Assembly (NCBI GenBank): GCA_937121175.1
Contig: CAKZKD010000028.1
Location: 62,001 to 126,000, forward strand
Reading direction: 5' to 3'
From: an uncultured Flavobacteriales bacterium
Lineage (GTDB): Bacteria > Bacteroidota > Bacteroidia > Flavobacteriales_G > Salibacteraceae
Length of the DNA: 64,000 nt
Position 1 is the stretch's first letter, and every line of letters begins with the position of its first letter. The position numbers and the translations under genes are program-made. The notes beneath the pieces are model-generated. The model worked only from the letters and a program-made list of their open reading frames with translations. It did no database searches and had not been told where the DNA came from. Below, in pieces: positions 12,547-33,837 of this stretch.

Positions 12547-13638
12547 TTAGTCTTTTCGACCTAAATCGTAAAGCATTTTTCCATGGTCAATAATTGCCGA
12601 AGCAAAGGTTGGTTGCTGGAAATAAGGTAAATTAAAATCCTTAACGACATCCTGAACTATTGGGGATAATTTCTTGTAATGCACATGGCAAATATTCGGA
12701 AACAAATGATGTTCAATTTGGAAATTCAATCCACCCACATACCATGAAAACAACTTGCTTTTCATTGCAAAGTTTTGAGTAGTAAGAATTTGGTGAGCTG
12801 CCCAACTATTCGCAATCGTATTGTCTTCTTCAATCTTTGGAAAAATAGTCCTTGTGGTAACATGCGCAGGCTGAAATACCGCTGAAAGGGTAAGTCCGGC
12901 AAAGAAATGTTTGCAAGAATATCCAGCCAGAATTAGCCAAATTGAATAATCGGTAAATACTATTGGAGCACCTAAGTAAATCAAATAATAGCTCACTTTC
13001 CAAACTACCAAACGGGTTAGTTCTCTGCGGTATGCTTTATCTTTTCCATCGTAAAACCCTTCTCTTCTGAACTGAAGTAATTGCTTAACATCCTTAGAAG
13101 AAGCCCACATAAAAGTCATAAGACCATAGAAAAACCATGCATAAATAAACTGAAACTTATGAATGTTTCTTTTTGGTACGTCTGGCGTAAATCGCAAAGC
13201 TGGAATGGGTGATTTTATATCTTCATCAACACCAGCTACATTGGTGTAAGTATGGTGCTTGTGATTGTGCTGTATTCTCCAATTTTCTACAAATCCACCA
13301 ATAAAAAACATTGTGAAGTGTGCTACTAAGTTGTTTAGTTTTCGGTTACTTGAAAAAGTATCGTGCACACAATCGTGCATTACGGAAAGGCCTAAACCTG
13401 CCATTCCAAAACCAGTTGCCGTCCACAATAAACAGTAGGTGTACCAAGCTAAATCTTGAAAGACAAAAGTGAGGGCAAAAGGAACCCAGAGTAACAAAAA
13501 CAACAACACTGTTTTTATGTACAATGAAGCGTTTCCGGTCTTCTTAATGTTATTCTCTTTAAAGTATTGGTTGACTCTTTTTCTGAGGGCTTTGTAAAAT
13601 GCGTCTCCATCTGGAGCTGTATATCTTGCTGCTTTCAA
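12547..13638 (-). CDS. Membrane fatty acid desaturase
   Basis: A 363-residue di-iron membrane desaturase. The three histidine boxes are present: HDCVHD (88-93), HNHKHH (124-129) and QIEHHLFP (around 310). The Gln in place of the first His in the third box is shared with front-end and linoleoyl-CoA-type desaturases. Four membrane segments flank the boxes. It introduces a double bond into acyl chains of membrane lipids, probably for fluidity control. The start codon is TTG. TATATTTG at 13658-13665 on the minus strand is a plausible -7 box 19 bases upstream. It appears to be transcribed alone; electron donor genes are not adjacent. Confidence 0.93.
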   Translation of the reverse strand: MKAARYTAPDGDAFYKALRKRVNQYFKENNIKKTGNASLYIKTVLLFLLLWVPFALTFVFQDLAWYTYCLLWTATGFGMAGLGLSVMHDCVHDTFSSNRKLNNLVAHFTMFFIGGFVENWRIQHNHKHHTYTNVAGVDEDIKSPIPALRFTPDVPKRNIHKFQFIYAWFFYGLMTFMWASSKDVKQLLQFRREGFYDGKDKAYRRELTRLVVWKVSYYLIYLGAPIVFTDYSIWLILAGYSCKHFFAGLTLSAVFQPAHVTTRTIFPKIEEDNTIANSWAAHQILTTQNFAMKSKLFSWYVGGLNFQIEHHLFPNICHVHYKKLSPIVQDVVKDFNLPYFQQPTFASAIIDHGKMLYDLGRKD

Positions 13639-16467: not shown

Positions 16468-17784
16468 TTACTCCTCCGGTTTCACCAATAAACCACTGAC
16501 TCGTATCAATTCAAACTCACTCAGTCGGACTTGGTATTTTGAGTTTTCTATGTTGATTTTGGCTCTCAGGAAATTGATTTGTGCCGTTCTGAATTCAACA
16601 TTGGTCAAAGAGCCCAATTGATACAATTCACGGGTTCGATTGAAGTTAGATTCAGCACTCGTAAGATTTCGAGTATTCATCGAAAGGATTTTCAAGTTCT
16701 TTTCATAATCGACCCAAGCATTATTCAAATCTGTCTTTAATTGGTCTATGGCATTCAACCGAGCCATCTCTTGACTTTCCAGAACAACTTTTGCATTCTT
16801 AGCACGGGTTTGACGCTGAGAAGCCTGAAAAATGGGATAGGACAATGTTATTCCACCTGTGAAACCCAAATTTTTCGCTTCCAACAAGTTACCTACCTCA
16901 TTATTTTGCTGACGGTATCCGTATTCTCCGTTTAAAGAGATTGTAGGAAGGTATCCTCCGTTTGCGATTTGAGCATCTTTTTCTGCAACCAATTTAGCAT
17001 ATTCGGCATTGTTTACCTGTGCATTATTTGCCTTGGCTTGTTTTTCCAACTCTGCAAAATCCATGGAAGAATTTATGTCCACCTTCTCTGAAATATCAAA
17101 GCCAAAAGGCAGCTGATAGCCCGTTAATTGATTCAAATTGTTACTCGCTTGCAAATAATTTGCTTCTGCATTGGCAAGGGTTACACTGTCGGTATTCAAA
17201 TCCACTTGAGCATTCAAGTAATCTAACGACGAACTAGTTCCAGACTCAAATTTATCTTTTGCACGTAGCATTCTATCGTTAGACAATTGCACCGATTGCA
17301 ACGCCACCTTTTTATTGTTTTTGGCAGAAGCCATGAGGTAATAATTGGAAATTACTTGCATCAACGTTCCTTCGACGGAGGCCCGAGTTTTAGCATCTTC
17401 CAAATCAACCATCAATTGCAACCTATCGTAATTCCGAAACATAGCCATTCCGTCAAAAATGACCCAATTGGCTCCAACACCTGCATTGAGCGAAGTTGAC
17501 TGTGCGCCGTCAACAGATATATTTATGGGCTCGGGCTGCGCCAATAATTCAACGTCAGTATTTTGATTGGAGTAGGTAGCACCTGCATTTAAACTCACCG
17601 TTGGCAACATACCTGCATTTCCAGCACCAGCATTGTTTTCTGCCATTTCCACATTATTCTGCAAAATCTGAATATTGTGGTTGTTTTTCAATGCCAATTC
17701 CAGCACCTTATCCAAGGTATATTCCTGCGCACTAACAGAAACCGTCACCATAATTATCGTAACGAGAGCAACTACTTTTTTCAT
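16468..17784 (-). CDS. TolC family outer membrane efflux protein
   Basis: A 438-residue outer membrane factor with a signal peptide (1-19) and two repeated TolC halves, seen from 'LDKVLELALKNNHNIQILQNN' and 'LYQLGSLTNVEFRTAQINFLRAKINIENSKYQ'. It forms the trimeric exit duct for the RND pump encoded just upstream. Its start overlaps the RND gene stop by 4 bases (ATGA type), so the two are translationally coupled. Last gene of the MarR-HlyD-RND-TolC operon. Confidence 0.95.
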   Translation of the reverse strand: MKKVVALVTIIMVTVSVSAQEYTLDKVLELALKNNHNIQILQNNVEMAENNAGAGNAGMLPTVSLNAGATYSNQNTDVELLAQPEPINISVDGAQSTSLNAGVGANWVIFDGMAMFRNYDRLQLMVDLEDAKTRASVEGTLMQVISNYYLMASAKNNKKVALQSVQLSNDRMLRAKDKFESGTSSSLDYLNAQVDLNTDSVTLANAEANYLQASNNLNQLTGYQLPFGFDISEKVDINSSMDFAELEKQAKANNAQVNNAEYAKLVAEKDAQIANGGYLPTISLNGEYGYRQQNNEVGNLLEAKNLGFTGGITLSYPIFQASQRQTRAKNAKVVLESQEMARLNAIDQLKTDLNNAWVDYEKNLKILSMNTRNLTSAESNFNRTRELYQLGSLTNVEFRTAQINFLRAKINIENSKYQVRLSEFELIRVSGLLVKPEE

Positions 17785-20700
17785 TCTTCTCTTAATGTTA
17801 ACCGTTCTGCATCCAATTCTACATAGGCTGGTTCTACTTCTTCGTTGGTTGGCTTTTTACCTGTCCAAAGCCATTTTACCGCAACCTTAATTCGATTCAG
17901 CATTACCAAAAACACAGGTAACACCACCAAGGTAATGAAGGTAGCCACTGCCATTCCATAAGCAACCGAAATTGCCATTGGAATTAGAAATTGAGCCTGA
18001 AAAGAGGTTTCAAAAATGAGTGGTCCAAGACCGGCAACTGTAGTAACTGAAGTCAAGACAATTGCTCGATAACGACTTTTTCCTGCTTCAAAAACGGCCT
18101 TATCAAAGTCCTTGTATTCTTTGACCAATTCGTTTACCCTACTCACAAAAACTAGACTGTCATTGACCATTACCCCAATAAGGGCAATAATTCCGAACAT
18201 GGAAAGCAGGCTAATCGCTTGTCCGTGAAAATAATGACCCCAACCTACTCCAATTATCGCAAATGGTATGGTTAGAAAAACAATTATGGCTTGCCAAAAC
18301 GACCTAAACGTGAGAATAATTACCGCTAACATAAGTATTAGTATTAATGGAATTACCCTTGCTCCAGATTCAGCAGTTTTCTGCTGCTGTTTACTCTGTC
18401 CTTCATAAGAAACAGCAATGGAAGGATAGGTTGCTAAAATTCCCGGAATTATATTTTCGCGAACGTCGGCCATTATATCACTGGCTGTTGCAGTAGGGTC
18501 ACCTAACTCTGCTTGAACCCTTACCTCGCGTTGTCCGTCAAGGTGACTAATAGCCACTATGCCTCGCTCAATTTCATATTCAGCAATTTCTTTAAGCGGA
18601 ACTTGCATTCCAGAAGCGGTGCGAATTCGCATATTCTCCAATCGCTTTACCGAACCTCGGTCTTCCAGGTTATAACGCACCCAAACTTTCACTTCATCCA
18701 GCCCACGCTGCAATCGCTGAACTTCAAATCCGAAAAACCCTTGCCGTACTTGACCAACAACATCCCGCATGGTTAAGCCCATTGCATACGCTTTCTCCTT
18801 TAGTTTTAGTCTCAATTCGCGCGCACCTTTTTTGTCGTTGTCGTTTACATCCTTCAAGGCAGGTATTTGTTTTAGAGCCGTTTTCAGTTCTTCTTTTGCC
18901 AAATCCAGTTGCTTCAAATCATTTCCTAGTAATGAAATAGAAACGGGCTTTCCGAATGGAGTATTGATAGTAAATGATAGTTTTTCAGCTCTAGGCACCT
19001 CACCCGCCTTAGCTCTTATGGCGTTTGCAATTTCATAATCGTGGTAGCCTCTTTTTTCCGCGCCCAGCATCCTAACGGTCATTACACCCATATTGGCAGA
19101 AGGCCCAACTTTAACCAAAATATTTTCTATGATTTGTTCGCCGTCTGTGCGCAGTGCAGATAAAGAATCGCCCACTAACCAAGCAGCAGTTTGAATTTTA
19201 TTTAAAATATCCTCAGTAACTGTTTCTCTGGTGCCGGTTGGTAACTCTAGACTAATACTGATAAAATCATTTTCAATTTTGGGGAAGAAGGTCGTTTTAA
19301 TGATTTTCCCTTGCAGTCCTCCTATGGTAATTAAAAACAGAGCGATTGGAACCGAGAGCGCCAACACCCAATTTTTAAGTGTAAATTTTAAAAATGGAGC
19401 ATAATATTTATCGCGCAAAGTGGACATGATATTATCGAAGGCTTTTTCTACTTTATTCTTCTTTGATTCTTTACTCAACGCCTTCGAATGTGCAACGTGG
19501 GCAGGCAAAATAAACGCTCCTTCTACCAATGAAAAGGCTAACGTACTAATGACCACAAATGCCATATCTGGAGCAAATTCTCCCAAACGACCTTCCAAGA
19601 AAAAGAAGGAAGAGAAGGCAATAGCTGTAGTCAAAACCGCAGAAAAAACTGCTGGAAGCACCTGCATGGTTCCGTCAACTGCGGCTTGTAATGGTGGTTT
19701 TCCGTCTTCGTATTGTTTGTAGATATTCTCGCCAATTACAATACCGTCATCAACCAAAATACCAATCACGAGAATCATTCCGAACAACGAAATAACATTG
19801 ATGGATACTTCGCTATTTGCACCCACAATGAACATCCCCATAAAGGCAATTGGAATACTGAGCGCCACCCAAAATGCCAATCGAATATGCAGGAAAAAGG
19901 CTAAAAACAACAGCACCAGAACAAATCCTATTATTCCATTTTCGAGCAACAAATCGATACGTTCGTTAAGAGTGGTAGAGCCATCACGAACAAGAGTAGC
20001 CTTTACAACACTATTCTCGCCATTGAATTTATCCATGTACTCTTTTACCGACTCGGTAACAAAAAGAATATCCTCTTCAATGGTGTTGCTAACTTCAACA
20101 ATTACCGAAGGCTCGCCATTTAGGTAACTTCTATTTGGCGATTCTGCCCAAATGTCGCTTACGGTTGCAACGTCGCGCAAACGCACAATTCGACCGTCAC
20201 TACTGGTTTTAATTACAATATCTCGAAATTCGTCGGCGTAGTACCCTTTTGTATTTGCTCGAATTATAAGCTCTTCTTCCGCACCGCGAACTTTGCCTCC
20301 TGTAACTTCCAGATTGGCATTTTGCACTTTTTGACTGACTTCCGAAAAAGTAAGATTGTAGGCTCGAAGTGCGTCTTCTTTCAAAGAAATTTCAATCTCT
20401 TCGTCGGGATAACCTGACAACGATATTTTACTTATTCCATCAATGGACAACAAGTCACTTTCGGCTTTTTGAGCGAATTTTTTGAGTGTGTTTAATGAAA
20501 CGTCACCACTTAAAGAGAAACTAATCGCAAAGTTTCGACTCTCTTGTTTGTAAATCACTGGAGGCTCCATTCCGTCTGGAAATGAAGGAATTCTGTCCAC
20601 CGCATTTTTGACATCTTGCAATACCAAATCGGTATTGTACGAACGTTCTACCTCAACCGTAATTATTCCTGAGTTTTCCTGACTTACTGAATTGATTTGC

Positions 20701-20936
20701 TCAATTCCAGTTACGCCTCTCAGGTTGTCCTCAATTTTAAGAACAATGCCCTTTTCAATTTCTTCAGGTGAGGAACCTGGGTAAACGGTTTCTATTTTTA
20801 AAATTCGGCTTTCAGAAACGGGAAAAAAATTCTTTTTCCAACTCTGCAAACCAAACCAACCGAAAAACAGAATAAGAAACATGAGCGTGTTTCCTGCAAC
20901 CGGATACTTTATAAAATAGGCTATTAAACTCCGCAC
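17781..20936 (-). CDS. RND efflux transporter permease (AcrB/HAE1-like)
   Basis: A 1051-residue inner membrane RND pump of the expected size with 12 membrane helices and two large periplasmic loops. The 'GILVDDGIVIGENI' segment of helix 4, with the paired Asp residues of the proton relay, is present, as is the AcrB-like C-terminal repeat half ('GVMVNDSLVFVSRVNE'). The sequence groups with drug or hydrophobic-compound exporters rather than CusA-type metal pumps, since no Met-rich metal path is evident. It lies 3 bases from the membrane fusion protein gene and overlaps tolC, all under a MarR regulator. Confidence 0.95.
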   Translation of the reverse strand: MRSLIAYFIKYPVAGNTLMFLILFFGWFGLQSWKKNFFPVSESRILKIETVYPGSSPEEIEKGIVLKIEDNLRGVTGIEQINSVSQENSGIITVEVERSYNTDLVLQDVKNAVDRIPSFPDGMEPPVIYKQESRNFAISFSLSGDVSLNTLKKFAQKAESDLLSIDGISKISLSGYPDEEIEISLKEDALRAYNLTFSEVSQKVQNANLEVTGGKVRGAEEELIIRANTKGYYADEFRDIVIKTSSDGRIVRLRDVATVSDIWAESPNRSYLNGEPSVIVEVSNTIEEDILFVTESVKEYMDKFNGENSVVKATLVRDGSTTLNERIDLLLENGIIGFVLVLLFLAFFLHIRLAFWVALSIPIAFMGMFIVGANSEVSINVISLFGMILVIGILVDDGIVIGENIYKQYEDGKPPLQAAVDGTMQVLPAVFSAVLTTAIAFSSFFFLEGRLGEFAPDMAFVVISTLAFSLVEGAFILPAHVAHSKALSKESKKNKVEKAFDNIMSTLRDKYYAPFLKFTLKNWVLALSVPIALFLITIGGLQGKIIKTTFFPKIENDFISISLELPTGTRETVTEDILNKIQTAAWLVGDSLSALRTDGEQIIENILVKVGPSANMGVMTVRMLGAEKRGYHDYEIANAIRAKAGEVPRAEKLSFTINTPFGKPVSISLLGNDLKQLDLAKEELKTALKQIPALKDVNDNDKKGARELRLKLKEKAYAMGLTMRDVVGQVRQGFFGFEVQRLQRGLDEVKVWVRYNLEDRGSVKRLENMRIRTASGMQVPLKEIAEYEIERGIVAISHLDGQREVRVQAELGDPTATASDIMADVRENIIPGILATYPSIAVSYEGQSKQQQKTAESGARVIPLILILMLAVIILTFRSFWQAIIVFLTIPFAIIGVGWGHYFHGQAISLLSMFGIIALIGVMVNDSLVFVSRVNELVKEYKDFDKAVFEAGKSRYRAIVLTSVTTVAGLGPLIFETSFQAQFLIPMAISVAYGMAVATFITLVVLPVFLVMLNRIKVAVKWLWTGKKPTNEEVEPAYVELDAERLTLREE

Positions 20937-20939
20937 GGT

Positions 20940-22052
20940 CTAGTTTTTAAGTTTTGGATTAACCACCATTCCGTTATAAGCCGTGCTAAAAACTTGGCCC
21001 AGAATTTTGGAGTCATTTTCTAACCCTTGAACAACAACCTTGTTTTCTCCAATTGAAAGCACCTCGATTTCTTTTAACGCCAAAACCGAATCTTGAATCG
21101 TATAAACTTGATTGATTCCAATCAGTAAATTCCTGGCAATTTCAGCTGAATTTTCAAATCCTCCTGACCGAACTTCACCGGACAGATAAAGACCTTCAAC
21201 CAACTTTGGGGAATTGACATCGATATAGACTTTCAAGGTTTGCGTAGCTTGGTCAACATGTTCGGAAATCCGTCCTACACGACCCAGCCATTCACCCGGC
21301 ATATCCTCAGAAAACAAACGAACTGAATCGCCAACTTTGATTTGATTACTTTCACTTAAGTTTAAAGAAGCTTCCATTTCAAAATCTCCAGGCTGAATTA
21401 ATGTGCCTAGTTTTTGACCAACTCTAACCATTGAACCCGGCAGCAAATTGCCTTCTACCAGCGTTCCAGAAAACGGTGCTATTATATTAAATTTAGATAG
21501 TTTTTCTTCTTGACTTTTTATGTTGTAATACTGATTGTAAACGTTGCGAGCAATTAGAAAATTTTTGAACTTTTTGTTTTTAAACGTCGGCATATCTGGA
21601 AACGGCTGTTCCACGTCAATAGAATTCACATAATTATTCCAACCGTCAATTTCTGCAGGAAAATCATATTTAATGTCTGACGAAAGTTGAATTAACGTAT
21701 TCAAAATAGCCGACTTACTAGACAGTAAAGTCAACTTGAATTCGGTACTATCAATTTTCAACAACCTTGCTCCCTTTGGAAAGGAAACACCTTCTTTAAA
21801 AGGTCTGCTTGATTTCAATACCGCCCCTTGAACCTCAGCAAAAAGTTCGATTCTATTTTTAGAAACCAACTTGCCAGTAATTGGAATCGTGTTTTTTACA
21901 AATCCATTTTGCACGGTTTCGACCCACACAGTTGGCTTGCCTCCCGAAGGGTTTCTTTTGGGTTTTTCCGCTTGCCCACTTAAATAGTTTTTGATACCGA
22001 AACCGCCGATAATGACTACAATACCAAGCACTATTGTTACCTGCCTGTTCAT
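20940..22052 (-). CDS. HlyD/RND periplasmic adaptor subunit
   Basis: A 370-residue membrane fusion protein with an N-terminal anchor (about 5-23), a first lipoyl half (IELFAEVQGAVLKSS, about 70-85), a short alpha-hairpin, the second half 'FNIIAPFSGTLVEGNLLPGSMVRVGQ' (about 190-215) and a beta-barrel domain. It bridges the RND pump and the TolC duct in the periplasm. The start overlaps the marR stop by 4 bases and the stop lies 3 bases before the RND gene. Confidence 0.94.
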   Translation of the reverse strand: MNRQVTIVLGIVVIIGGFGIKNYLSGQAEKPKRNPSGGKPTVWVETVQNGFVKNTIPITGKLVSKNRIELFAEVQGAVLKSSRPFKEGVSFPKGARLLKIDSTEFKLTLLSSKSAILNTLIQLSSDIKYDFPAEIDGWNNYVNSIDVEQPFPDMPTFKNKKFKNFLIARNVYNQYYNIKSQEEKLSKFNIIAPFSGTLVEGNLLPGSMVRVGQKLGTLIQPGDFEMEASLNLSESNQIKVGDSVRLFSEDMPGEWLGRVGRISEHVDQATQTLKVYIDVNSPKLVEGLYLSGEVRSGGFENSAEIARNLLIGINQVYTIQDSVLALKEIEVLSIGENKVVVQGLENDSKILGQVFSTAYNGMVVNPKLKN

Positions 22053-22504
22053 TCTTTACTGTTTAGAGAATTTGATAGAATTTCTTTAATTGACCTCAAA
22101 TGATTTTTTAGTTGTTCGGTTTCTGAACCCCCAAGTTGTTGTTCAATTTGCTTGAGATTAGACAAACCAATTGGATAAAAGTGGTCTCGAATCTTTAAGC
22201 CTTTTTTGGTAATATGCAGGTTCTTTACTCTTCGGTCGTTTTTGTCAGGTCGTTGTTCCACCAGTCCTTTTTTAACCAAACCGTCCACTAGTCTTGAAAC
22301 TCCAGGCTTTACTTTATTCAAATTTTCACAAATAAACTGCTGGTTTACTCCGTCATTGTTACTGATAAAGAGTAACATGCGCAATTGCTCGAATGGAACA
22401 TCAATTCCCTCCTCATGAATAACGCGCTGCATATGATTCACCAATGCATTGGTTGCGGTAGTAAGCAAATAGCCCAGATTGTTATGAATTTGAAGTTTTT
22501 TCAA
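22049..22504 (-). CDS. MarR family regulator of the RND operon
   Basis: A 151-residue winged-helix protein with the MarR pattern: N-terminal dimerisation helix, 'NQQFICENLNKVKPGVSRLVDGLVKKGLVEQRPDKNDRR' (recognition helix and wing, about 53-93), C-terminal helices. It heads the efflux operon and presumably represses it until a ligand is bound. The start is TTG at 22504. A perfect 14-base palindrome lies only 5 bases upstream, and a -7 box ends 23 bases upstream, so autoregulation is likely. Confidence 0.92.
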   Translation of the reverse strand: MKKLQIHNNLGYLLTTATNALVNHMQRVIHEEGIDVPFEQLRMLLFISNNDGVNQQFICENLNKVKPGVSRLVDGLVKKGLVEQRPDKNDRRVKNLHITKKGLKIRDHFYPIGLSNLKQIEQQLGGSETEQLKNHLRSIKEILSNSLNSKE

Positions 22505-28452: not shown

Positions 28453-29256
28453 GTGTTGAATAATATATATGTAATAAGTAGAAGAAAAGCTCTCCATGAA
28501 TACAAGCGGTTGTTTAACGCTTTTGTATTTGTGCTATTTAGCTGTTTCAGCCTGTACTCGCAAGCCCAAATAGTAAGAATAGAGGACGACCATTCTGTTA
28601 ACGATACAAACGCTCTCACCGGTTCTTTTGACCTTAATTTTTATGCGATTCAAAATAGCAAGCAACTTTTTAAACTGTCTACCGGTTCTCAGGTAAAATA
28701 CCAAAAGGAGAAATACACGCTTCAATCCTTGAATGAATTGCGCTTTATCATAGCGGGTAGCAATAATTTAGAAAACCGAGGATTTCAGCATTTACGATTT
28801 CAACGAAGGCTGGACAGCACTTTTACGTGGGAAGTTTTTAGCCAAATTCAGTTTGATCAAGTATTAAAAATAAAATCGCGTTTTTTAAACGGAACCGGAC
28901 CTCGAATTCAGTTTTTTAGAAAATCGAAAAGCAAAGTATTTCTGGGTATGCATTATATGTACGAGTATGAGGAAGAATACGAAACCAACCTCATTAACAA
29001 TGATCACCGTATGAGTGCACACCTCGCATTTTACCGAAAGCTCAAAAAAAGCTATTTGCACTTAGTAAGTTACTTTCAACCAAATTTGGCTGGCTTTTCC
29101 GATTATCGTGTTTCTGGAAGTTTGTCTTACTCTGTTGAACTGCGAAAACAATTGCGTTTTAATATTCGGGGCGAACTCACCTACGACAGTGAGCCAGTGA
29201 CAGGTGTTAACAAATTGAACTACACGGTAATGAATGGGTTCACCTTTAATTTTTAG
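28453..29256 (+). CDS. DUF481-like outer membrane beta-barrel protein
   Basis: An exported protein of about 265 residues. The segment 'FNAFVFVLFSCFSLYSQAQ' is a clear signal peptide, followed by strand-rich sequence with 'FQHLRFQRRLDSTFTWEVFSQIQFDQ' and an end in Phe (MNGFTFNF), the layout of DUF481 salt-induced or Flavobacterial small barrels. The start is unclear: the frame is open far upstream into the marR gene, but no suitable ATG precedes the signal peptide, so GTG 28453, TTG 28456 or TTG 28510 are the candidates. It is divergent from marR and may share the palindromic operator. Confidence 0.75.
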   Translation: MLNNIYVISRRKALHEYKRLFNAFVFVLFSCFSLYSQAQIVRIEDDHSVNDTNALTGSFDLNFYAIQNSKQLFKLSTGSQVKYQKEKYTLQSLNELRFIIAGSNNLENRGFQHLRFQRRLDSTFTWEVFSQIQFDQVLKIKSRFLNGTGPRIQFFRKSKSKVFLGMHYMYEYEEEYETNLINNDHRMSAHLAFYRKLKKSYLHLVSYFQPNLAGFSDYRVSGSLSYSVELRKQLRFNIRGELTYDSEPVTGVNKLNYTVMNGFTFNF

Positions 29257-29720
29257 GCAAGCTTTTTTCTAAACACAACTTTATCGTCTCCTTCAGCCCA
29301 GAAATCTCGAATTACAGCTTCTTTTTCATAACCATTTTTTAAATAAAAATTCCGGGTTGCTCCAAATTCATCGGTACTGGAAGTGTCCACGATTAAAACC
29401 CGCCCACCTTTTGTTCTAAGTTGAGTTTCTACAGCATTCACCAATTTAGCTCCAATTCCTTTGCCTTGTTGGTAGTTTTTCACACCAATTGCGTACATAT
29501 TGTACGTTCCGTCGGTTAGCATTTCAATGTTACAGAACACGAACCCTAGAGGGATTTCATTTTCGGAATAAGTTAACCAAAGCGCATTTGAATTGGGATT
29601 TTCCAAAAAATCCGCAATCATTTCTTCCAACATTTCAGGTGGGAATAATTCAATGGTTTCTAAAATTGATTTGATACCCGATAAATCTTCTTTGACTGTT
29701 CTACTAATTTGATAACTCAT
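29253..29720 (-). CDS. GNAT family N-acetyltransferase
   Basis: A 155-residue GNAT fold with the acetyl-CoA loop 'GVKNYQQGKGIGAKLVNAVE' (motif A, Q-x-x-G-x-G/A) and a late 'ATRNFYLKNGYEKEAVI'. The ATG at 29720 overlaps the preceding GNAT stop as ATGA, so it is preferred to the ATG 12 bases further upstream. The acceptor is unknown. Last gene of the run that begins with the TonB receptor at 33785. Confidence 0.9.
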   Translation of the reverse strand: MSYQISRTVKEDLSGIKSILETIELFPPEMLEEMIADFLENPNSNALWLTYSENEIPLGFVFCNIEMLTDGTYNMYAIGVKNYQQGKGIGAKLVNAVETQLRTKGGRVLIVDTSSTDEFGATRNFYLKNGYEKEAVIRDFWAEGDDKVVFRKKLA

Positions 29721-30220
29721 TTCTGCCTGCATTCCTTTCTTTCTAATCGTAATACTTCGCTCATATATCCTTTTGTAAACTCCCGTTTTGCAACGAATTT
29801 AAAACCCAATTTTTTGTAGAATTTTATAGCCAAAACATTGGTTTCTAGCGGATCAATAACTATTGCTTTCACCTTTTCGTTTGAGAAACATTTTTCGATA
29901 GCAAGGTTCATCATGACAGTTCCATAACCTTTTCCTAAATCTGTTGCCTCTCCTATCCAAATATCGATGGCTCTTAAGTTCTGCTCTATCTCACCCCAAT
30001 AATTCGTTTCTTCAAGATAAGGGTCAATAATTTGCACAAAACCAATTGCCCGACCATTAAGCTCCGCCACCAGCATTTTTTGCCACTCTTTTTCTTCTAC
30101 CAACATCTCACTCCAATCCCAGTCGTCTTCTGGGTCGCAATCGATAACGTGCTGCTGTTTATCCCAGTGTTGGAGAATGGGAATGTCTTCGAGGATGGCA
30201 TTTCGAAGATTAATGTTCAT
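29717..30220 (-). CDS. GNAT family N-acetyltransferase (AAC(6')-like length)
   Basis: With the ATG at 30220 this is 167 residues. The acetyl-CoA motif is 'GEATDLGKGYGTVMMNLAIE' and the C-terminal 'NVLAIKFYKKLGFKFVAKREF' is typical. The overall pattern (HWDKQQHV near the N-terminus, WIGEATDLGKGYG) resembles the branch that holds AacA4/AAC(6')-type enzymes, but also many housekeeping GNATs, so resistance should not be assumed. Overlaps the metallo-beta-lactamase stop by 11 bases and is coupled to the next GNAT by ATGA. Confidence 0.88.
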   Translation of the reverse strand: MNINLRNAILEDIPILQHWDKQQHVIDCDPEDDWDWSEMLVEEKEWQKMLVAELNGRAIGFVQIIDPYLEETNYWGEIEQNLRAIDIWIGEATDLGKGYGTVMMNLAIEKCFSNEKVKAIVIDPLETNVLAIKFYKKLGFKFVAKREFTKGYMSEVLRLERKECRQK

Positions 30221-30944
30221 TTTTAAATAACTCAATTGTGTAATCTAATAATTCAATACCCCCATACTTTCCGTGGCCTGGAACCACTATTTCAGCTTCT
30301 TTGAAATGAGTTCGTACTTTTTCAACGGTTTTTGGCCATTCAATAATGTTCGCATCCGCCAAATTTCCTCTTCCAGATCCACGCTCTTTAATCAAACACC
30401 CCCCGAACAACACTTTATCTTTTGCCCAATAATTAATTATATTATCTGGTGTATGACCCTCTCCGAAAAATTGATTCACCAAGACCTCAACACCTACTTT
30501 TATTTCCAATACAGAATCAAAACCATTCCGTGGAACTTCTACCCCATCCTTTTTGGCTAATTCAATAGTTTTAAAAGAACTGTATGACTGAATTCCCTTG
30601 CCATGAAATACGTTCAACCCCCCCAAACAATCGTTATGGAAATGGTTTATCACAACCGCTTTTATCTTTTTCTTTAAACTGTCTTCAACGAAAGAAATCA
30701 ATTCAATCGCAGAAATACTATCAACAGGAGTATCCAATATTACGGCTTCATTGTTGTCAAAAACAATTAAACCATTACAAGGAAATGGACCGTAGTTTTC
30801 AATATTTAGGTAGGAAATATGCAGAAAGGAACTTGTTGCTAGTTGTTGAATTTCAATCTTTTGAGCCTCTTTAGAAGTACTTTCGTGAGTTTTATCAACA
30901 CACGATAAAAGCAATAAACAAATTGTAAACCTTAAATACTTCAC
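30210..30944 (-). CDS. Subclass B1 metallo-beta-lactamase, predicted lipoprotein
   Basis: A 244-residue protein with all B1 zinc ligands. Using numbering from the GTG at 30944: H101, H103, D105 in NHFHNDCLGG, H164 in GEGHTPDN, C183 in FGGCLIK, H224 in VPGHG. The Lys after the Cys (K186) and the 'GNLADAN' Asn (N194) that bind the drug carboxylate and carbonyl in B1 enzymes are also present. A lipobox (LLLSC, Cys15) suggests membrane anchoring as in NDM-1. B1 enzymes hydrolyse penicillins, cephalosporins and carbapenems in the periplasm. An upstream TTG at 30965 is the other possible start. It lies within a TonB receptor-thioredoxin-GNAT run. Confidence 0.88.
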   Translation of the reverse strand: MKYLRFTICLLLLSCVDKTHESTSKEAQKIEIQQLATSSFLHISYLNIENYGPFPCNGLIVFDNNEAVILDTPVDSISAIELISFVEDSLKKKIKAVVINHFHNDCLGGLNVFHGKGIQSYSSFKTIELAKKDGVEVPRNGFDSVLEIKVGVEVLVNQFFGEGHTPDNIINYWAKDKVLFGGCLIKERGSGRGNLADANIIEWPKTVEKVRTHFKEAEIVVPGHGKYGGIELLDYTIELFKNEH

Positions 30945-30989
30945 CAGAAAATTATTAAGGAGCAATTTAAAACAAAACGAATAGCCTTC

Positions 30990-31457
30990 TTACTCTTTTA
31001 CCTCTATTAAAACCCGCAATAACTCCTTTGCTGACAAATAGCCCCCATATTGAAATACAATTTCACTTTTGGCATTTATAATTGCAATTGCTGGGTAATT
31101 TAACTTCCCATCTACAGTCCCCAGTTGCTCAGCTATTTCGTGAACGCCTGTGTTATTCCCAGTTGGTTTAAACACAAATTTTCTACCTCGAAAAACAACA
31201 TCACGCTCCGATTCTGCATCAAAATTTACTAAGTAAAATTTTGAGTTTAGCAGCTCCACCACATCTTCATTTTTGAGTGTTGTTTGTTCCATTTTATGGC
31301 AATACTTGCACCAATCGGTTTTTAAGAAAATGACTGTATTTCTCTCCTCAACACTCTCTGAACTATCAACAGCTTCAAACGAAAGGGTGTTCAACTGTGC
31401 TTGCGCTGAACCCACACTAATAGTTACCAAAAGGATGATAATTAGACGAGTCAACAT
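30990..31457 (-). CDS. Secreted thioredoxin-fold protein
   Basis: A 155-residue exported protein: signal peptide (1-21, SVGSAQAQ), then a thioredoxin fold with active-site WCKYC (Cys 50 and 53) and cis-Pro 'YPAIAIINAKSEIVF'. It resembles the DUF255/SoxW-like periplasmic thioredoxins that act on thiols outside the cytoplasm. It begins 3 bases after the TonB receptor stop and precedes the metallo-beta-lactamase by 45 bases, suggesting a role in maturing a partner in this operon, for example the Cys-containing plug of the receptor or the zinc-ligand Cys of the lactamase. Confidence 0.9.
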   Translation of the reverse strand: MLTRLIIILLVTISVGSAQAQLNTLSFEAVDSSESVEERNTVIFLKTDWCKYCHKMEQTTLKNEDVVELLNSKFYLVNFDAESERDVVFRGRKFVFKPTGNNTGVHEIAEQLGTVDGKLNYPAIAIINAKSEIVFQYGGYLSAKELLRVLIEVKE

Positions 31458-31460
31458 TCT

Positions 31461-33785
31461 CTATTTATTAAAGATAAATCGAACCCCAGCGAATCCTCGA
31501 ATACCTTGGTTGGGTCCATAAACGTAAGTTGGGTCGAAAGTAAAAGCATACGGATTATTCGCGGTTGGAATAACCTCTCCTCCAGGTGTAAACGCCACAT
31601 TCTCATCAAACGGATCGTTTGTTCTGGCTATCAGACCTGCATCTCCAAGATCTCGCCACGGAACCCAGTTCAGTATATTTTTGACGCCTCCATACAACTC
31701 TAATCCATTGGCAAAAACCTTGGTTAGTTGCACATTTTGGATACTCCACCAAGGAGAATATTCTGGTCGCGGGTCGTTTTCACCTAACAAGGGTAAGCTC
31801 ATAGGTCCATATAAATTTCCTGTATAATCGACCTTAATATTAGGCTTTGCAAACGTGTAACTCACCGACCATGTTCCTGTAAATTGTTCGGTAAGTTCTT
31901 GCCGTTCTCGAACTCCATTTTGCACACTATAAACATCCATGACAGTTCCGCCAGCCATCAAATTCCAATTTTTATAATTCGCATCGGCATTTAACGAAAA
32001 TCCATTTGAAACGGCATGACCGTTAAGATTGCTGTAAATAATTTTATTTGGGTCAGTATCGTAATCAGGAAATATTTTATTGGTGAAGTAGGTGTAAAAT
32101 AGGGAACCGTCTAAGCCAATCGACCAATCGTTTTTAGTGTAAATTTTCTTTACATAATTGATGTTTCCATTGTAGGATGTTTCTGGATTCAAATCGGATA
32201 AGAATACAACATCTCTTGCACCAGTAAGTGCCGCATGGTCTTCTGTAAATACGTTTGCTACACGGTAGCCTGTTCCAAAACTAAACCGGAGAATGTTTTG
32301 CTTATTCTTCGAAGACCATTTGTAGTTGAATCTTGGCGTATAAATACTTCCGTGAACCGAATTGTAATCGTACCGCATTCCAATCAACAGTTTGTTGTAC
32401 TTATTCAAACTAATTTCATCTTGTACAAAAATACCGGGCAAATAGGTATGCGTTGGTTGATTTATAGGATTCAACGAATCGGAAGTCGCAGTTGCCAGCG
32501 TATTGTCATCGTAAAATGTATATCGCATAGCCGCACCAACCAAAAGGTCGTTTTTCAATCCTAGTTCTTTGTTCCAAGTTAGTTGCCCAAAACCAATTTT
32601 TTGGTCGGCTATGTATTCCGTGTTGCCATAAACCGAATTTTGATCGTGTTCATTTGCACTAAATGTAAACATAACGCGCTCTTTAATGGGCAATTGGTAA
32701 GTACCTAACAACTCCCACCGACTTGTATAGATGCTCTCTCCGTAAACCTCATCTCCGCCTCTGTGCTTGTTGCCATCCCAATTCATTTCTCCACCAAATC
32801 TATCTTCGTAAACATACCTGGCCGCAACAGAAAATATCCGATTGTTCTTTCGTTCAAAATTCCATTTATTAAAGACCGAGATTCTATCCTGGAGCGTGAC
32901 ATCGGTAAAGTTGTCGTTGTTGTTATCAATACGTTGGTCAAAATTGAAATAATTGACTCCAACTAGTGAGGTAGCCTTTTTTCCTGCTTTAAATTTTGCC
33001 GATAAATCAGCATTCACCTCACCCCATGTTGTCGTAAAAACATCTCCGGTAAACAAAGCCGCATTTGTTGGTTTTTTGGTAATTACATTGATTAATCCAC
33101 CAACAGATTCTGACCCATAAAGCGTGGATGCTGGACCTTTTACCACCTCTACTCGTTCGATTAACGATTGTGGAATACCACTCAATCCATACACCGTTGA
33201 CAGTCCACTTACTATTGGCATTCCATCTATTAAAACCATCGTGTAAGCACCCTCTAGTCCATTGATATGGATATCGCCTGTGTTACAAACTGCACAATTT
33301 ATTTGAGGTCGAACTCCATTTACATTCTGTAGTGCTTCATAAACTGAGGGCGTTGGATTAGCTTTAAAAAAAGTTTCGTTATACACCTCAACCGGCACCG
33401 CACTTTCTAACCTCGACATTGGCTTTAAAGTACCGGTAACCACCATTTCACTCAGGCTTTCCAAACTTGGTTCGAGTTCTATATTTATCGTAAGATTAAT
33501 GTTTTCTGTGACTTCAATTGTTTGACTATTCTTTTCATACGAGATAAAAGAGGCTACTAGCTCATAAGATCCTACTTCTATATCTTTAAGAATATACTTT
33601 CCGGCAGCGTCTGTGGTTGTACCAACAGAAGTCCCTTTCAAATAAACGGTCGCATACGGAATAGGAGTCCCCTGTTCTGATATTATTCCTGAAACCGTAC
33701 TTGATTGAGCTCCGGCCGAAAGGGCTAGAAATCCAAACAGAAAGAATACCCAATACGTTTTTAAAACTTTATTTAAAGGCAACAC
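31461..33785 (-). CDS. TonB-dependent receptor, metal/siderophore-type, heading a five-gene run
   Basis: A 774-residue outer membrane receptor: signal peptide (about 1-27), carboxypeptidase-regulatory-like domain (28-115), plug (about 130-240, with 'VEVVKGPASTLYGSESVGGLINVITKKP') and a 22-strand barrel. The plug contains the unusual CAVCNTGD (CxxC) motif near residue 165. The start is GTG. It imports a ligand across the outer membrane using TonB energy; the ligand is likely a metal complex because a DtxR/MntR-like palindrome lies in its promoter. Downstream genes follow with short gaps. Confidence 0.9.
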   Translation of the reverse strand: MLPLNKVLKTYWVFFLFGFLALSAGAQSSTVSGIISEQGTPIPYATVYLKGTSVGTTTDAAGKYILKDIEVGSYELVASFISYEKNSQTIEVTENINLTINIELEPSLESLSEMVVTGTLKPMSRLESAVPVEVYNETFFKANPTPSVYEALQNVNGVRPQINCAVCNTGDIHINGLEGAYTMVLIDGMPIVSGLSTVYGLSGIPQSLIERVEVVKGPASTLYGSESVGGLINVITKKPTNAALFTGDVFTTTWGEVNADLSAKFKAGKKATSLVGVNYFNFDQRIDNNNDNFTDVTLQDRISVFNKWNFERKNNRIFSVAARYVYEDRFGGEMNWDGNKHRGGDEVYGESIYTSRWELLGTYQLPIKERVMFTFSANEHDQNSVYGNTEYIADQKIGFGQLTWNKELGLKNDLLVGAAMRYTFYDDNTLATATSDSLNPINQPTHTYLPGIFVQDEISLNKYNKLLIGMRYDYNSVHGSIYTPRFNYKWSSKNKQNILRFSFGTGYRVANVFTEDHAALTGARDVVFLSDLNPETSYNGNINYVKKIYTKNDWSIGLDGSLFYTYFTNKIFPDYDTDPNKIIYSNLNGHAVSNGFSLNADANYKNWNLMAGGTVMDVYSVQNGVRERQELTEQFTGTWSVSYTFAKPNIKVDYTGNLYGPMSLPLLGENDPRPEYSPWWSIQNVQLTKVFANGLELYGGVKNILNWVPWRDLGDAGLIARTNDPFDENVAFTPGGEVIPTANNPYAFTFDPTYVYGPNQGIRGFAGVRFIFNK

Positions 33786-33807: not shown

Positions 33808-33815
33808 CAAACATA
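33808..33815 (-). promoter_or_regulatory. -7 box of the TonB receptor operon
   Basis: TATGTTTG on the minus strand fits TAnnTTTG, 22 bases before the GTG start. No TTG is visible at -33; that place is filled by the palindrome at 33818-33837. Confidence 0.6.
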
Positions 33816-33817
33816 AT

Positions 33818-33837
33818 AAGTTAGGCTTGCCTAACTT
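33818..33837. promoter_or_regulatory. DtxR/MntR-like palindromic operator
   Basis: AAGTTAGGCTTGCCTAACTT is a perfect inverted repeat (9-base arms, 2-base centre). Its TTAGGC...GCCTAA core resembles the DtxR/IdeR/MntR operator consensus (TTAGG...CCTAA). It abuts the -7 box, so a bound repressor would block the promoter. Confidence 0.65.

Follow-up and report, generated by a model that had tools for sequence, protein, structure and literature searches.

A subclass B1 metallo-beta-lactamase gene of the MYO/CIM/CJO group in an uncultured Flavobacteriales bacterium

A stretch of 64,000 nucleotides from an uncultured Flavobacteriales bacterium (assembly GCA_937121175.1, contig CAKZKD010000028.1, positions 62,001 to 126,000; the window hereafter) carries an intact gene for a metallo-beta-lactamase (MBL). 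Our analyses make it highly probable that this gene encodes a functional subclass B1 MBL of the Bacteroidota MYO/CIM/CJO group, i.e., an exported enzyme lipid-anchored at Cys15, and that it represents an accessory chromosomal gene; activity, lipidation and membrane location are what we infer from the sequence. The host is probably an environmental member of Bacteroidota. The features of the gene are as follows, with those from 30630 downwards assigned by alignment.

30210 to 30944, minus strand: B1 MBL coding sequence, open and intact, 244 amino acids, GTG start at 30944 (profile, alignment and tree)
30900 to 30944, minus strand: predicted lipoprotein signal peptide, residues 1-15, with lipobox L-L-S-C (residues 12-15; Cys15 at 30900-30902), from sequence inspection, a scan of relatives and the CIM-2/CJO-1 precedents
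30630 to 30644, minus strand: zinc-ligand motif His-Phe-His-Asn-Asp (BBL 116-120), then Cys121
30453 to 30455, minus strand: zinc ligand His196 (MBL residue 164)
30396 to 30398, minus strand: zinc ligand Cys221 (MBL residue 183)
30387 to 30389, minus strand: Lys224 (MBL residue Lys186), which in B1 enzymes binds the carboxylate of the drug
30363 to 30365, minus strand: Asn233 (MBL residue Asn194)
30273 to 30275, minus strand: zinc ligand His263 (MBL residue His224)

Subclass B1 identity and closest relatives

The window MBL scored 248.8 bits (4.3e-74) against NF033088 (bla_subclass_B1), an NCBIfam equivalog model with a cut-off of 200, and matched solved B1 structures at 2.1e-76; judged from these two comparisons, its match to the B1 family is not due to chance. 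All six B1 zinc ligands (His116, His118, Asp120, His196, Cys221 and His263) are present, the first three as His101-x-His103-x-Asp105 of the protein itself, and so are Lys224 and Asn233, as a preliminary description of this DNA had reported together with a complete B1 gene. These six ligands were invariant across the 69 other B1 rows of the alignment, and the position of Cys221 was occupied by Asp in 3/3 distant MBL-fold rows from Bacteroidota. The second shell of the window MBL (Cys69, Cys121 and Gly262) is the same as that of MYO-1 and ECV-1. An AlphaFold2 model built with 11 sequences as input (mean pLDDT 88.9) predicted an alpha-beta/beta-alpha MBL fold of the B1 type, and its top solved matches were all B1 enzymes, i.e., 9c3d, CIM-2, CJO-1 and ECV-1 (TM 0.92-0.94 by target, root-mean-square deviation (rmsd) 1.1-1.5).

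A maximum-likelihood tree of 73 rows separated a 70-row B1 side, which holds the window MBL, from 3 outgroup rows (distant MBL-fold proteins) with an SH-aLRT support of 97. The comparison with B1 references suggested in the preliminary description accordingly placed the protein within B1 and not among the distant non-B1 MBL-fold rows. More precisely, it grouped with MYO-1, CIM-2, CJO-1 and 9c3d in a clade of 44 Bacteroidota rows (SH-aLRT 95), and CfiA, IMP, VIM and NDM lay outside this clade. Its terminal branch was long (0.68), and its best identity to anything found among solved or fetched enzymes was 52%; because of these two values, the window MBL would merit a new family name under usual naming practice, as a fairly distant member of a known B1 group. 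Membership in the named families CHM, CIM or BMHC was rejected, as the matches were good (268.3, 264.6 and 248.9 bits, respectively) but far under the curated cut-offs (475, 490 and 550).

The preliminary description had set the enzyme in the context of BlaB, IND and GOB, and this part of it does not hold. GOB is a subclass B3 enzyme. BlaB/IND-type enzymes formed a separate clade of 21 rows, some of which pass the BlaB/IND/MUS model (NF012146), and the window MBL is ruled out as a member by score (148.8 bits against a cut-off of 270) as well as by the tree. The BlaB/IND/MUS family shares with it subclass B1 and Bacteroidota hosts; on the other hand, the window MBL is 25.9% identical to one member passing the model.

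The closest solved protein was PDB 9c3d, a CcrA-like B1 MBL from Dyadobacter fermentans (52% identity over 214 residues, TM 0.94 by target, rmsd 1.1). Where CJO-1 has Lys59, both proteins have Leu, and they also share Cys69, Cys121 and Asn233, although 48% of the residues and the host group differ. CIM-2 and CJO-1, lipidated B1 MBLs of Chryseobacterium in the same clade, are 46-47% identical to the window MBL and have all zinc ligands and an equally loose lipobox; however, they carry Lys59 and Tyr233, where the window MBL has Leu and Asn, like NDM-1. MYO-1 and ECV-1 are 45-46% identical to it, and MYO-1, a member of the same clade, differs in being plasmid-borne and in having Tyr233. MYO-1 and ECV-1 hydrolyse carbapenems, mostly less efficiently than NDM-1 (Frohlich 2020, PMC7443720). 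The weak activity of CJO-1 and CIM-2 on some cephalosporins has been ascribed to Lys59 and Tyr233 (PMC12326980). Because of its NDM-1-like Leu and Asn at these positions, the window MBL may be a better cephalosporinase than CJO-1 and CIM-2, and it is a natural test case for the published view that positions 59 and 233 limit cephalosporin hydrolysis.

B1 genes were reported in 22.4% of Bacteroidetes, where group B1-3 includes MYO-1 (Berglund et al. 2017, PMC5637372), and 64/396 sampled genomes of the class passed the B1 cut-off here; by these frequencies, the B1 MBL is a common gene type in these bacteria. The window MBL is ordinary in kind. A search for phage-borne relatives of the window MBL yielded none. 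Some relatives were long (L011, L012, L015 and L018; frames of 410-473 amino acids), with C-terminal extensions of about 150-200 amino acids, and two of these come from the window's own family. In four Flavobacteriaceae relatives (L004, L005, L006 and L008), the MBL gene stands in a conserved block of genes for an alpha/beta hydrolase, a small GTPase, a small protein, the MBL and a 540-amino-acid lipoprotein-like protein, which suggests a stable, vertically kept locus there.

Probable lipid anchor and proposed activity

By inspection, the N-terminus of the MBL (MKYLRFTICLLLLSC) consists of a charged start and a hydrophobic core followed by the lipobox LLSC, which makes the protein a probable lipoprotein. 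On the window MBL side of the tree, at least 15/40 relatives have a lipobox by a simple rule, as compared to 0/21 on the BlaB/IND side; the rule overlooks some likely cases, so that 15 is a lower bound. CIM-1, CIM-2 and CJO-1 are reported to be active and membrane-associated (PMC12326980, PMC10920655), CIM-1 with the lipobox FLNC (PMC10920655); CIM-1, which is absent from our tree, is 51-53% identical to CIM-2 and CJO-1 (PMC12326980). Because of these precedents and of the lipoboxes among relatives, membrane anchoring is a known trait of the window MBL group with no tie to NDM-1. The preliminary description was right about a lipobox, but its likening of the anchor to NDM-1 finds no such relationship behind it: NDM-1 shares subclass B1, lipid anchoring, Leu59 and Asn233 with the window MBL, yet it is 24.9% identical to it, belongs to another clade and is mobile. 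Lipidation probably arose independently in NDM-1 and in the group of the window MBL.

In the mechanism that we propose, Sec would export the MBL, which would be lipid-anchored through Cys15 and would probably reside at the outer membrane, on its periplasmic face. Judging from homologous enzymes, two zinc ions (bound by His116/His118/His196 and by Asp120/Cys221/His263) would activate a hydroxide for attack on the carbonyl of the beta-lactam, opening the ring in penicillins, cephalosporins and carbapenems, with Lys224 and Asn233 holding the substrate. Transcription would probably start from the promoter of the upstream gene pair described below.

Several points weigh against this reading of the gene. 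The lipobox is non-canonical, with Leu at -2 as compared to the strict consensus [LVI][ASTVI][GAS]C; the membrane-anchored CIM-2 (ILSC) and CJO-1 (LLNC) stray from it likewise (PMC12326980). The MBL is no more than 52% identical to any solved or fetched enzyme. The frame offers no ATG; because the start codon is either GTG or an alternative in-frame TTG at 30965 (which would give 251 amino acids), the expression level is uncertain. Finally, the evidence for co-transcription of the MBL gene with the upstream pair is spacing only. One could also suppose that the protein is a hydrolase of the B1 lineage with a natural substrate other than beta-lactams, whose hydrolysis would then be a weak side activity: 3/21 predicted B1 genes gave no imipenem hydrolysis in E. 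coli (Berglund et al., PMC5637372), and none of the neighbours is a resistance gene of certain function. Against this stand the full set of catalytic residues, Lys224 and Asn233 among them, a position deep within a clade that holds several proven beta-lactamases, and a score above the curated B1 cut-off, and we consider a different natural substrate very unlikely. Beta-lactamase activity of the window MBL is, on these residues and this placement, very probable. With the window MBL, the known environmental lipidated B1 carbapenemases would gain one further, well-separated sequence in their reservoir; by itself, the enzyme shows nothing pointing to a clinical threat.

Directon and possible metal regulation

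The MBL gene is the third of five close minus-strand genes forming a directon; the first two gaps measure 3 and 45 bases, and at the last two junctions the genes overlap by 11 and 16 bases. Its other genes and the sequences upstream are the following.

33818 to 33837, no strand: perfect palindrome AAGTTAGGC-AA-GCCTAACTT, of DtxR/MntR-like form
33808 to 33815, minus strand: TATGTTTG, abutting the palindrome and matching the Bacteroidota -7 promoter element TAnnTTTG
31461 to 33785, minus strand: TonB-dependent outer-membrane receptor, first gene of the directon
30990 to 31457, minus strand: thioredoxin-fold protein, 45 bases from the MBL start, kept in siblings without the MBL
29717 to 30220, minus strand: GNAT acetyltransferase, distantly AAC(6')-like, whose start overlaps the MBL stop by 11 bases
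29253 to 29732, minus strand: second GNAT acetyltransferase, overlapping the first by 16 bases

The palindrome has the form GTTAGGC-NN-GCCTAAC, which we take to resemble the operators of DtxR, IdeR and MntR. Two siblings (L034 and L035) have the same layout, i.e., GTTAG-N6-CTAAC followed by TAAGTTTG or TACGTTTG. From the sequence, the MBL gene may now be part of a metal-responsive operon, and we asked how far it might have a role in the response to metal starvation, sharing a transcript with the TonB receptor and thioredoxin genes under DtxR/MntR-type repression. Such a role concerns regulation and is compatible with a functional, lipid-anchored B1 enzyme. The tight same-strand spacing, the lack of any predicted terminator within the 45-base gap between the thioredoxin and MBL genes, the position of the palindrome beside the TAnnTTTG element with its shape retained in both siblings, and the presence in the genome of a single exact copy of the palindrome core and of one DtxR-family protein all speak for it. 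Conversely, the siblings have a degenerate core, the palindrome also scored as a terminator-like hairpin (though with a weak T-tail), it would be unusual for a regulator to have just one exact site, and the MBL is missing from the siblings, so that the pairing is not evolutionarily conserved. We regard this role as a tentative possibility. The fuller scenario, in which a metal-starvation operon with the TonB receptor and the thioredoxin-fold protein, under a DtxR/MntR-type repressor, has taken in a lipid-anchored carbapenemase and raises beta-lactam defence when iron or manganese is scarce, seems unlikely to us. As the siblings are without the MBL, its link to the putative metal-responsive operon is specific to this species.

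A conserved MBL-GNAT resistance pair was considered and rejected. In the loci of relatives that we compared, the GNAT genes do not stand beside the MBL gene, and in other family genomes close relatives of the first GNAT occupy separate loci. The first GNAT scored 46.9 bits against the AAC(6') aminoglycoside acetyltransferase model (cut-off 280); it has relatives of 50-57% identity at other loci in 5 other family genomes, 4/5 of which also have a B1 MBL. An RND efflux set (OEP, AcrB-type, HlyD-type and MarR regulator) lies at 16468-22504 and is at least partly kept in siblings.

Resident or acquired gene

The preliminary description had seen an ancestral chromosomal member in a locus free of mobile elements. 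The second part was borne out: among those neighbours that we examined on this contig of 284,505 bases from a Bacteroidota genome, there was neither a transposase nor an integrase, and we saw no long flanking repeats or further mobile signature there. A mobile B1 MBL in a transposase, integrase, integron or plasmid context was thus rejected; the closest plasmid-borne relatives are 44-46% identical. An ancestral chromosomal member is nevertheless only partly supported, as the MBL is present in 1/4 genomes of the genus (the window's own) and a full-length relative in about 9/35 genomes of the family. In addition, the two siblings keep the gene of the TonB receptor (about 81% identical) next to that of the thioredoxin-fold protein (55-56% identical) in a different neighbourhood, where neither the MBL nor either GNAT is present.

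These distributions would fit a recent horizontal acquisition, for which the slightly low GC of the gene (0.348, z = -1.9), the scatter of the MBLs of the window's family across the tree, the occurrence of MYO-1 on plasmids and that of an MBL relative adjoining an integrase on a Hymenobacter plasmid also speak. However, gene loss in the siblings fits equally well, the neighbours show no mobile signature, no close relative was found anywhere (at most 52% identity), and a monophyletic grouping of the family MBLs, and with it vertical descent, was not rejected (approximately unbiased (AU) test, P = 0.287). Recent acquisition is in our view a serious candidate, although short of probable, and we regard the MBL as an accessory gene with an undecided history. 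Such MBL genes can vary in presence among close species without visible mobile elements. In the Hymenobacter tibetensis plasmid (L098), the gene of a 45% identical B1 MBL directly adjoins a tyrosine recombinase gene. In the sibling L034, what appear to be the remains of a broken sulfatase-like gene (13180-13620) lie 3' of the thioredoxin gene, where the window has the MBL.
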